A stretch of 33,943 nucleotides of DNA, taken from a virus. The notes under the pieces were generated by a model, which was not told where the DNA came from, ran no database searches, and saw nothing but the letters and a program-made list of their open reading frames with translations. The DNA lies in the IMG/VR virus record IMGVR_UViG_3300042507_002260, positions 1-33,943 of that record, one strand, 5' to 3'. Shown here piece after piece: positions 26,201 to 29,045 of this stretch. Positions within the stretch are counted from its first letter, which is position 1; each line of letters starts with the position of its first letter. The position numbers and the translations under genes are program-made.

Positions 26201-27037
26201 GGAATTTTGCCGAGCATTGCAGAGAACACGCTCTATCGCCCAGGCGGGTTGCAGGGTCAGACGATCCGCGCCGTGACCCGCGGAACCGAGCCGAGCGAAG
26301 ACAACTTCATTCCAGAGTACCTGCGGCAGTCGGCAGCGATCCCGCTCCCGGACGGCTGGCCGTCCCTGCTGGGCGGAGAGCCTGCGGAAGGGTTGCAGCG
26401 GTACATCACCAACATCGATCTGCCGTTTGAGTCCACGCTCAACCTGTTCACCCCTGGCGTCGGCACCACCACGGCATCACGGCTCGCGGACACCATCCAG
26501 AAGACCGGCAGCAACATCCTCGGCCAGACCAACCCGCTCATCAAAGCCCCGTTGGAGTACATCACCAACCGGCAGCTCTACACGGGCCGGGACATGTCGG
26601 ACCTGTACTCGGTGCTGGAGCAAGACCTCGGGCCCATAGGAAGACCGCTGGAGCAGGCGATCATCAACTTCGTTCCGTTCGGGGCCCGCGGCATCAGCAT
26701 GTACCGCCAGTTCAACGATGACCGGCTGGACCCCGTCGATGCCAGGATGAAGGCCGCGTTCAACGTCTTGGCTGGCGTGAAGCTCACCGACGTTGACGAG
26801 GAGCGGACCAAGCGACAGGCCGCAAGGACCATGCTCAACCAAATCCTGGAGACGACCCCAGGCGTCCGGACGTATGAGAACCTCACCGTTCCCGACGATG
26901 CCCTGCGGTCGATGCCAGAGGATCAGCGGAAGCTCTATCTGCTGTACCGCATCCTCCAGAGCGATGCCGCCAAGCGGGCCCGCGAGCGGAAGAAGACCGC
27001 CCTAGACCCGCTGGAAGTGCTAGGGGCTGTCGGCTAA
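23297..27037 (+). CDS. Very large internal virion protein (ejection protein candidate 3)
   Basis: A 1246-residue protein, the largest gene here, in the size range of T7 gp16. Early residues include a hydrophobic pair (GSSGLATAGYLLDTPGALVRGILAG, about 60-84). Near residue 742 it has KIGALASPAFHVRNQYSGMYN, and near 943 YSPSAFTDFERNVMKRVAPF followed by YSFQKG; I recall both patterns, FHVRN and T-x-F-E-R-x-V-x-x-x-x-PFY, from phage large polyvalent or internal proteins. No clear transglycosylase motif is seen. It probably forms part of a channel for DNA entry. The last 18 bases overlap the convergent integrase gene. Confidence 0.72.
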   Translation: MARSPLFDIYDPYGELEERARLGMLDDEEYLLAGPVELRKPTLSDLMPDEEKKGWLNSLAEMGSSGLATAGYLLDTPGALVRGILAGDPLSAFGSSEDRVTGRELLRQYGAIGEEDNWGNFAGGVAAEALLDPFTYGTLGLSLLGRGALSQTGKAMKAAGLLRDSAVDSAGRLNALRFQDNLPLRNDAIPTPRVREYQRRLTPERAIAFLDPADQAAATARLQSQFERFGVDAAEGMTQRAGVLDNIRIPGTNIGFEVGGGAFGDAIAEGLDAFGNFTKMAPVLGPVTRTAAALFDQNVGGLGTVSSNMELTNDLQFAKRAAKVNARNNQEALDRAYSLLQYDARNADVPDAVPSSYLPGGAAIPEELRTFDSQTLWDRLADYVEARPLPGPTLTGAPLRTTGDDVADYVLENVPEFRAIRDRFANLGPEAVQAARDAGLATPVAQSRGAGGFIPRQLRRFLDPSPPDIPGGEPYDFRSWGRDERAFSVQDNFGRSRDPAYDLPGGIRAFRYLTGNVDPLLDSRALQQDLIAAPSDKARRVLLRRALRTLGNLDDAAFTFDGKTNPYRYITENVRNSRAYQAADPAEQAAMLATAQREVNANFEKLGQLLMKADTQFADQGIGIFDTPSWNNALRYERGQAENLANADQLFAMLRRRVDPTPAGRVVGGQSVSLADAARELGFDPKNFANRWMQQAPPAQRVPLDELSIPRQFVDAMRVLTPQSRLALPERGLLNAADQFTSAFKIGALASPAFHVRNQYSGMYNAATEGALNPLDMIAAAQASGGNYESLARRAQGGRSPYRNLSTDDALRQFIGDSSAQRLASGNVISDISGVEDPGRIGGMYVGSGPTIAESTRQALQQGRRADPANRTWGNFLGDLFSMRGVGMTREPRPYQTNPLLAFNDAVGNRTEDTLRIGTFLTLIRQGMDPAEAGDTVRRLLVDYSPSAFTDFERNVMKRVAPFYSFQKGILPSIAENTLYRPGGLQGQTIRAVTRGTEPSEDNFIPEYLRQSAAIPLPDGWPSLLGGEPAEGLQRYITNIDLPFESTLNLFTPGVGTTTASRLADTIQKTGSNILGQTNPLIKAPLEYITNRQLYTGRDMSDLYSVLEQDLGPIGRPLEQAIINFVPFGARGISMYRQFNDDRLDPVDARMKAAFNVLAGVKLTDVDEERTKRQAARTMLNQILETTPGVRTYENLTVPDDALRSMPEDQRKLYLLYRILQSDAAKRARERKKTALDPLEVLGAVG

Positions 27038-27859
27038 CTCCAGCGGCGGGGCCGAGGGTTGCTCCCGTTTTTCCTCGGCCAGCAACAGCCTGTCTATGTA
27101 GTAGACCTTCATGCCAGGGGTCTTGTGACCTAAGTGTCCACTGGCATCTTTGCCCGCGATTTCCGCGTAAGTTGCCCCGGATCGTCGCAGAAACTTAGTG
27201 CTGCCCGACATTCCGGCTGCCTTGCAAAGACGCCGCATTTGGGCCAAAATCTTGTCTCTGCATATCAAGTCCCCGAATATGCGGGGGCCTCGCCGGGGCA
27301 GCTTTGAAATAGCCGCCAAGGCGTTGGCATCCAGATAGCAGACATGCGGTTCGCCCGTTTTGAACTGGCGGATCAGGAGTCTATGGCCACGGATTTGGTC
27401 ATGTCGAATTTCCAACAAATTCGCCAATCGCAGCCCGGTGGAGTAGGCCACCAGAAGCCATGCCTGCATGAGCGTGCTGTGCGCACACTTCGCTCCCCCA
27501 GTCAACTTCGCGGCTACCGACATCAGCCTGCGAATCTCGGCATGGGACCACGCAACTGGGCTGGGCGGCAACCGTTTGACCCGTCTGAGGGGGCGCACTA
27601 TACTCGCGTCCACCAACCCCTCGCTGGCGGCGAAGGCCAAGAGTCGCCCGAGCATGCGGCGGTGGTTGTATACGGTGGAGGGAGCCAGATGGGTCAGGGC
27701 TTTGGTCAGGTAGTCGTCCATGAGATCGGGAGTCAAATCCCCGACCTTCCACGGCAGACGGCGACAGAAGACCTCAAGCTGCTCCAAGTAACCGGGGCTT
27801 CCGCCGACGCGGTTGCAGTAGGCTCGGGCGAGTTCCAGGATGGTCATGGGGGCTGCCAT
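27020..27859 (-). CDS. int: Tyrosine recombinase (phage integrase)
   Basis: A 279-residue protein on the opposite strand. Residues 5-95 form a SAM-like core-binding domain; 103-260 form the catalytic domain. Visible catalytic residues are Arg 144 in TGLR, Lys 167 in QFKTGE, Lys 222-x-x-Arg 225 (KFLR) where Lys stands in for the usual His, His 245 in HLGHKT, and Tyr 254, nine residues after it. It would join phage attP to host attB. AGGAG lies about 13 bases ahead of the ATG at 27859; the in-frame ATG at 27847 is an alternative. It is convergent with the large ejection gene and has a tRNA fragment upstream. No excisionase is seen beside it. Confidence 0.93.
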   Translation of the reverse strand: MAAPMTILELARAYCNRVGGSPGYLEQLEVFCRRLPWKVGDLTPDLMDDYLTKALTHLAPSTVYNHRRMLGRLLAFAASEGLVDASIVRPLRRVKRLPPSPVAWSHAEIRRLMSVAAKLTGGAKCAHSTLMQAWLLVAYSTGLRLANLLEIRHDQIRGHRLLIRQFKTGEPHVCYLDANALAAISKLPRRGPRIFGDLICRDKILAQMRRLCKAAGMSGSTKFLRRSGATYAEIAGKDASGHLGHKTPGMKVYYIDRLLLAEEKREQPSAPPLELADSP

Positions 27860-27937
27860 TGGGGGGTTCCACTCCTAACTTATGGGCAGGAGTCGGTGCT
27901 TGCATCCCAGCGGAAAAACCGTCATAACCGGAACCTC

Positions 27938-27960
27938 GGGCAGCTAGCTCAGTTGGTTAG
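27938..27960 (+). other. attP: Candidate attP core: 5' fragment of a tRNA gene
   Basis: A 23-base segment reads like the start of a tRNA: a seven-base 5' acceptor arm followed by TAGCTCAGTTGGTTAG, the conserved D-arm (A-box). The D stem is not closed afterwards (TTGCC follows where GAGC is expected), so this is a fragment, not a functional tRNA. Integrases often target tRNA genes and phages carry a matching segment at attP, here 79 bases from the start of the integrase gene. Use of the 5' half instead of the more common 3' half is unusual. The core length cannot be fixed without the host sequence. Confidence 0.6.
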
Positions 27961-28145
27961 TTGCCTCGCGGTCTGGCTCGCTTTCCGCCGCTGGCCCATT
28001 ATCCGCGCCGCCTGGGTTGCCATTCTGGTGACCCGCTTCTGGCTCTCTGCCGCAGGCCACGCATGCCTGCTTGTCCTTCTTGGACAGTTTCGCAAAGCCC
28101 GTTTGGCACTGTTTCGGCCACGGGGGGGATAGACGGATCGACGCT

Positions 28146-28165
28146 GCCCCACGGAGGGGGCTTTT
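28146..28165 (+). terminator. Short hairpin with T tract before the recombination operon
   Basis: GCCCC at 28146-28150 pairs with GGGGC at 28157-28161 around a six-base loop, then TTTT. This short intrinsic-type hairpin lies 20 bases ahead of the exonuclease start and just before its ribosome site (AAGGAGG). It might work as an attenuator or an antitermination target of the early operon. The stem is only 5 bp, so the terminator strength is doubtful. Confidence 0.4.
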
Positions 28166-28184: not shown

Positions 28185-29045
28185 ATGGACAGCGAGATTA
28201 ATTGGGACGACCTGCCGGTGATGGTGACCGGCATGTCGAATCAGGCTTATCACCAGAAGAAGGGGTTCGACGGCCGGTCGTTCCTCTGCTCGGTGCAGAA
28301 GGGTGGCGGCGAGGCCCAGTTGTGGATGGACATGGGCTACTCCCTGTTCGGGGGGAACTCGGCCACAACCACGGGCAGCGAGTTTGACGAGATCGTCACG
28401 GGGATCCTTGGCGGCAAGAAGTTCGATGACATGGTGGTGGTGCCACCGGACGATGTCCTCGGCGCCAACGGCTCCCGCAGCACCAAGGCGTACAAGGAGT
28501 GGGCGGCCAACCAGACCGGCATCTGCGTCACCGCCGACAAGAAGTGGCAGTACAGCAAGATGCTGGATGCCATGCGGGGCAACGACTCGGTCTATGAGTT
28601 GATGACCCTGACCACGCGGACGCAGTTGTCCGTGTTCTTTGAGGCTCACGGTCACCGACTGAAGGTTCGGCCGGACGCCTGCACGGAAGGTCTGTGGTGG
28701 GATCTCAAGACCACCAGCAGTCCGTGGGACCGACTGTTCCGTAGCGCGCTGGACTACGGCTACTTGGAACAGGACTGGCTCTACCAACAGGGCGCGTACG
28801 CCATTGGCTATCCGCCGTTCCGCATGCCGTTTGTGTTCGTCCAGACCATGCCGCCGTTTGCTTGCCGGGTGTTCGTTTTGCCCGAGCAGATGGTGGCCGA
28901 GGCTGGCAAGCGGCTGATTAGCACCATGGAGGAAGTCCGACTGCGGCGTTCGACTGGCATGTATGTGCCAGCGGACGCGGAGGAGATTCAGGAGATGGCC
29001 TTCCCGCAGTGGGCCATGAAGCAGGAGGAGGTTGTTGAACTATGA
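28185..29045 (+). CDS. YqaJ/RecE-like PD-(D/E)XK exonuclease
   Basis: A 286-residue protein. I choose ATG 28185, which has AAGGAGG 9 bases upstream; the frame is open further up but without sense. The nuclease core shows Glu 153 (FFEAHGH), Asp 164 (RPDAC), Asp-Leu-Lys at 173-175 (WDLKTT) and QQGAY at 201-205, matching the E...D...DxK...QxxxY pattern of PD-(D/E)XK exonucleases such as YqaJ and RecE-type proteins. It should resect double-stranded DNA from 5' ends to give 3' overhangs for the annealing protein encoded next, with which it overlaps by ATGA. Together with ERF and SSB it forms a recombination set. Confidence 0.85.
   Translation: MDSEINWDDLPVMVTGMSNQAYHQKKGFDGRSFLCSVQKGGGEAQLWMDMGYSLFGGNSATTTGSEFDEIVTGILGGKKFDDMVVVPPDDVLGANGSRSTKAYKEWAANQTGICVTADKKWQYSKMLDAMRGNDSVYELMTLTTRTQLSVFFEAHGHRLKVRPDACTEGLWWDLKTTSSPWDRLFRSALDYGYLEQDWLYQQGAYAIGYPPFRMPFVFVQTMPPFACRVFVLPEQMVAEAGKRLISTMEEVRLRRSTGMYVPADAEEIQEMAFPQWAMKQEEVVEL

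Follow-up and report, generated by a model that had tools for sequence, protein, structure and literature searches.

The tRNA segment and its surroundings

The stretch of DNA analysed here, called the window, is the whole IMG/VR virus record IMGVR_UViG_3300042507_002260 (33,943 nt). On its plus strand, at 27938-27960, lies a segment that corresponds to nt 1-23 of tRNA-Val(CAC) and matches complete planctomycete genes for this tRNA exactly. It is composed of GGGCAGC (27938-27944) directly followed by TAGCTCAGTTGGTTAG (27945-27960), a 16-mer that occurs in a single copy in the window when up to two mismatches are allowed, the number expected from shuffled sequences being 0. A preliminary description of this DNA had reported here a segment with a D-arm box, 79 bases from the start of an integrase gene and without a complete tRNA. 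These points stand, and neither ARAGORN nor Rfam detected a tRNA in the window, whether complete or split. The phage genes that were said to continue on both sides are likewise present: genes for packaging and structure on the left and, to the right, a helicase gene and an operon that opens with an exonuclease VIII-like gene (28185..29045, plus strand; PHROG 412, E 2e-34).

The neighboring gene (27020..27859, minus strand) encodes a tyrosine integrase of 279 aa with a core-binding and a catalytic domain, as indicated by Pfam PF00589, the PHROG integrase match, and the predicted structure. The model of this protein has a mean pLDDT of 93, and its fold resembles that of lambda Int and of the XerA / Xer recombinases. 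Residues R144, K167, R225, H245, and Y254 occupy the active-site positions and are invariant in 24 family members. With 279 aa the protein is too short to hold an arm-binding domain as well. Although the first ATG is the one 79 bases from the segment, the start conserved in the family is an ATG 12 bases further in.

Probable attachment sites and tRNA targets of the integrase family

The family was gathered from IMG/VR with integrase peptides alone, so that the search was blind to the attachment site. It returned 7 loci and then 53, the latter with 48-97% identity, and in 53/53 of them a tRNA 5' segment lies upstream of the integrase, 47-109 bp from the start of the integrase match. Among annotated phages and plasmids there were no relatives of the window integrase. 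The genome collection contributed a single relative of the family (L042), inside a metagenome-assembled genome (MAG) of a Pirellulaceae bacterium; the binning or the host status of this MAG is doubtful because it has no tRNA-Val of the window's sequence. One record of 117778 bp (IMGVR_UViG_3300049595_001870, here G003; loci L033-L038) holds two related but distinct family phages about 57 kb apart, arranged head to tail, each carrying an integrase and an att type of its own. This could be a tandem, a cointegrate, or an assembly chimera; tandem prophages joined at att are unsupported, the same phage type flanking each att region. In another set of relatives, L020/L104 and L024/L101, the att regions are near-identical but for an insertion of about 42 bp right after the core.

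Most family segments have the form GGGCA(G/A)C-TAGCTCAGTTG or GCACCCC-TAGCTCAATTG; one is GCGCGCG-TAGCTCAGTTG, and an additional relative on G003 has GCGCCCG-TGGCTCAATTG. In a class-level sample of 398 genomes, taken around the MAG that holds L042, the sequence GGGCAGCTAGCTCAGTTGG starts a tRNA gene in seven Planctomycetia genomes of 3-4 Mb, not counting the phage contig. ARAGORN calls six of these seven genes as complete tRNA-Val(CAC), the seventh being interrupted by the end of its contig; the window is identical to them over nt 1-23, preceded by one or two bases that match by chance. The exact match to a planctomycete tRNA gene that the preliminary description had proposed to look for does therefore exist, and the GGGCAAC form is a tRNA-Val(CAC) in an eighth genome. 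The sequence GCACCCCTAGCTCAATTGGATAGAGC is tRNA-Arg(ACG), present in about a quarter of the class-level sample. A phylum-level sample of 392 genomes lacked the host tRNA, which turned up in the class-level sample alone. These matches suggest a host of planctomycete type, and Val-type sites may serve as a host clue for uncultured planctomycete viruses, pointing to a small-genome (3-4 Mb) lineage. Across the family the targets are thus tRNA-Val(CAC), tRNA-Arg(ACG), and the GCGCGCG and GCGCCCG types. On the integrase tree 6 changes of target label are needed, with Val and Arg switching several times.

The extent of the conserved element was measured as information content over 34 non-redundant attP sites (<80% alike). 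Conservation rises from 0.19 bits at position -1 to 1.94 at tRNA nt 1; the mean is 1.59 bits for nt 1-18 and 0.74 for nt 19-26, so that the signal fades after G18 within the D-loop, and amounts to 0.1-0.2 outside the element. The element therefore starts exactly at the start of the tRNA and stops inside the D-loop. It includes an inverted repeat with 11-bp arms around TCA(G/A)TTG, a design that fits the core of a tyrosine-recombinase site. In the window the putative integrase half-site C is GGGCAGCTAGC (27938..27948, plus strand), with boundaries drawn from the inverted-repeat analysis of the 34 sites. The probable 7-bp overlap, where crossover would occur, is TCAGTTG (27949..27955, plus strand), which spans tRNA D-stem and D-loop and is near-invariant bar one G/A position. 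The putative half-site C' is GTTAGTTGCCT (27956..27966, plus strand), which, read as its reverse complement AGGCAACTAAC, shares 8 of 11 positions with C. Over the 34 sites, 7.0 of the 11 positions of C are matched by the reverse complement of C', where shuffles give 3.2. Moreover, the C' arm follows the target: CCGTGGC is found in both arms of L036b and GCGTAG in both arms of L094. The family thus documents repeated switching of tRNA target, with integrase half-sites that change to match.

Directly downstream of the core is a conserved feature that the preliminary description did not contain: a small hydrophobic ORF and, behind it, a terminator-like hairpin. The ORF (27953..28132, plus strand; HMM match 3e-15) leaves the core itself, starting at TTG 27953 or further upstream and stopping at 28130-28132; it is present at 53/58 attPs, and its reading frame is open upstream as well. 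There is no consistent start codon across the relatives, and neither Pfam nor PHROG gives a family match. There is an excess at the third codon position (0.155, 0.101, 0.226), and the plus-strand dN/dS is mostly 0.2-0.8; coding on the minus strand as the source of the conserved downstream frame was ruled out by a stop in that frame at every attP. The hairpin, GCCCCACGGAGGGGGC-TTTT (28146..28165, plus strand), recurs behind the ORF in most relatives, with altered bases in the stem; a consensus scan calls none in the window.

A further observation concerns the region 27860-28132 and its counterparts in L052-L100, L042, and L201. There the frame of the small ORF is in phase with the integrase start codon at 52/53 sites, including those in which the core is read in a different frame. 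From the ORF to the integrase start the plus frame has stops at 0/53 sites, the other two frames having them at 20 and 37. The stretch between the small ORF and the integrase start shows no codon periodicity.

On the other side of the core, a candidate promoter reads into the tRNA segment (27900..27928, plus strand: TTGCAT, 17 nt, CATAAC). It was recognized by enrichment at the level of the family: the -10 consensus is matched at >=5/6 within 30 nt upstream of nt 1 at 59% of sites, compared with 6% in shuffles and 0% in a control stretch, the spacing to nt 1 usually being 8-19 nt. With the -35 added, the family mean score is 8.8 versus 7.1 for shuffled and 7.8 for reversed sequence. In the window itself the match is weak (p=0.32), and a consensus scan calls none there. 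Taken over the whole family, these figures suggest that a phage promoter lies ahead of the tRNA segment.

Predicted integration into the D-loop of a host tRNA gene

There is a strong case that the locus is a phage attP of a 5'-restoring type that acts in the D-loop, and by which we infer that integration proceeds. The core is identical to one end of a host tRNA gene, the tyrosine recombinase beside it has all its active-site residues, and the putative half-sites are inverted around a short overlap; the tRNA end carried by attP is the 5' end in every family member and not the 3' end of the classical type. We consider it very probable that 27938-27966 is the attachment core and that the integrase recombines it with the D-stem and D-loop of a host tRNA-Val(CAC), rebuilding the gene from its front end. 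Strand exchange would take place between the 11-bp half-sites that flank TCAGTTG. At attR the promoter-like stretch and 5' end of the phage would be joined to host nt 19-76, and since the phage core starts at tRNA nt 1 with the promoter-like stretch before it, the original 5' end of the host gene, with its promoter, would be displaced to attL, at the far side. The phage should thus supply the 5' end of the rebuilt tRNA and probably its promoter too, which would then drive the gene. When the join was made in silico at nt 18, ARAGORN called the attR product (phage left, host right) as tRNA-Val for 7/7 hosts and made no tRNA call for attL or for attP.

The part of the preliminary description that read this segment as the attP core is supported by the match to a tRNA 5' end and by the same kind of segment at every related integrase recovered. 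The prophages with this repeat at their ends and the same integrase that it had proposed to seek were not found in a limited sampling, which covered 397 genomes of the likely host order and one scan of the whole genome collection. A pattern scan of viral contigs for the full tRNA-Arg yielded five stretches on four contigs, with no integrated family member among them.

This absence of family prophages from the searched genomes, together with the fact that the relatives are known as virus contigs with an un-recombined site, could be taken to mean that the integrase core, once copied from a tRNA, survives as a relic or as a binding mimic in a phage that now integrates elsewhere or never. We regard this as unlikely. 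Metagenomes mostly sample free-virus contigs anyway, and a relic would be expected to decay, yet sites of several tRNA identities have kept nt 1-18 intact and an abrupt boundary at nt 1, and their partner arm varies with the target. More improbable still is that the segment acts as a transcribed regulatory or decoy RNA, a mimic of the tRNA D-arm held in a hairpin, and is not an att site at all. Such a role would account for the promoter-like stretch upstream, for an inverted repeat able to fold as a hairpin, and for the small ORF and terminator-like hairpin downstream, but not for a segment that begins exactly at tRNA nt 1, switches tRNA identity as a unit, and is in every case adjoined by an integrase gene.

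A different question is what the promoter-like stretch does if the core is attP as proposed. It may possibly serve the small ORF or the right operon of the free phage and not the tRNA after integration, a suggestion we would make only tentatively. The conserved ORF and terminator-like hairpin directly downstream speak for it, as does the weak promoter match in some members, the window included; on the other hand, it is compatible with a tRNA role, as the geometry places any promoter there next to the rebuilt tRNA, at a spacing to nt 1 that is typically 8-19 nt. Held with similar reserve is the idea that attP is a built-in promoter exchange, in which a single transcription unit of the free phage (promoter, tRNA 5' segment, small membrane-protein ORF, and terminator) straddles the core and integration swaps the partners. 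The host tRNA would then be made from the phage promoter, and the phage ORF would be driven from the promoter of that tRNA. If true, the phage would gain a means of sensing whether it is integrated, along with a grip on a host tRNA.

Relation to other tRNA-integrating elements

The proposed attP core shares with classical tRNA-integrating phages and islands a tyrosine integrase beside attP, a tRNA part in attP that restores the gene, and inverted half-sites around an overlap of about 7 bp. It differs from the classical phages in that the 5' and not the 3' end is carried, the crossover maps to the D-stem and D-loop, and the host promoter would be displaced. This would be a whole phage family that seizes a host tRNA's promoter along with its 5' end, the mirror image of most phages. 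The sublocations listed for integration in tRNA genes, in a review that cites Williams 2002, are the anticodon, the T loop, and the 3' end, and the same review states that, very few cases aside, bacterial recombinant tRNAs retain their own promoter (PMC8371274). The Islander survey found 5' tDNA fragments in 159 of 3919 islands (about 4%), in agreement with the earlier remark that a 5' segment is less common than a 3' one, and assigned crossovers to the anticodon or the T-stem/junction (PMC4383910). The islands with 5' fragments resemble the predicted product in that the fragment is displaced upstream of an intact tRNA gene, but that survey's classes assign none of the crossovers to the D-loop (PMC4383910). 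A D-loop class is absent from both publications, Williams 2002 being known to us through the citing review alone (PMC8371274; PMC4383910). The family would thus add the D-loop to the sites where integrases appear to cut tRNA genes.

The archaeal pTN3-like integrases also have the 5' half of a tRNA gene as attB, a use called unique in archaea (PMC8371274), and part the rebuilt gene, tRNA-Leu in pTN3, from its own promoter (PMC5495485, PMC8371274). In pTN3, 41 bp are shared (PMC5495485), reaching the anticodon, and attP is located within the integrase gene, which is disrupted on integration; in the viruses of bacteria described here identity stops in the D-loop, and the integrase gene, with attP 79 bp upstream, stays whole. 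A looser likeness is to phages with integration-dependent immunity such as BPs, in which attP lies in the repressor gene, and this loses its C-terminus (PMC4557955). In both cases attP overlaps an ORF, one end of which integration changes or, here, would change, but the small hydrophobic ORF has no family match and would lose its upstream part. By its position it would come to lie behind the promoter of the host tRNA, so that integration would exchange the promoters of the two.

Similar geometry is found integrated with other integrases. About 100 tRNA-Arg matches were examined and six proved to be 5' fragments, two ending in the D-loop and four in or just past the anticodon arm; a seventh candidate (L213) turned out to be complete, its acceptor being a variant one. 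In the planctomycete chromosome G592 a 5' tRNA-Arg fragment ending at GG19 (1642589) is followed 66 kb on, on the same strand, by the intact gene (1709045), and the 66-kb island carries a tyrosine integrase of another, unrelated type that reads away from the intact tRNA-Arg. This island is the predicted geometry, produced by a different integrase. On the virus contig L175 an intact tRNA-Arg, one of the five stretches from the pattern scan, has 117 bp upstream of it a 35%-identical integrase, a junction that is consistent with attR; a scan of viral contigs with this integrase found only itself.

Other planctomycete-type elements, L160 (G465), L151/L152 (G752), L246 (G501), and L173/L174, have 5' tRNA-Arg fragments that end in or just past the anticodon arm; 5'-restoring integration may be common in the phylum and involve several integrase types. 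A point against the proposed mode is that the most similar integrases of planctomycete genomes (about 33% identity) adjoin tRNA-Met sequence, in one case a 3'-half fragment, which is the usual mode: at L163 (G491), positions 1100-1500, an integrase with 33% identity to the family lies beside a 3'-half tRNA-Met-like sequence.
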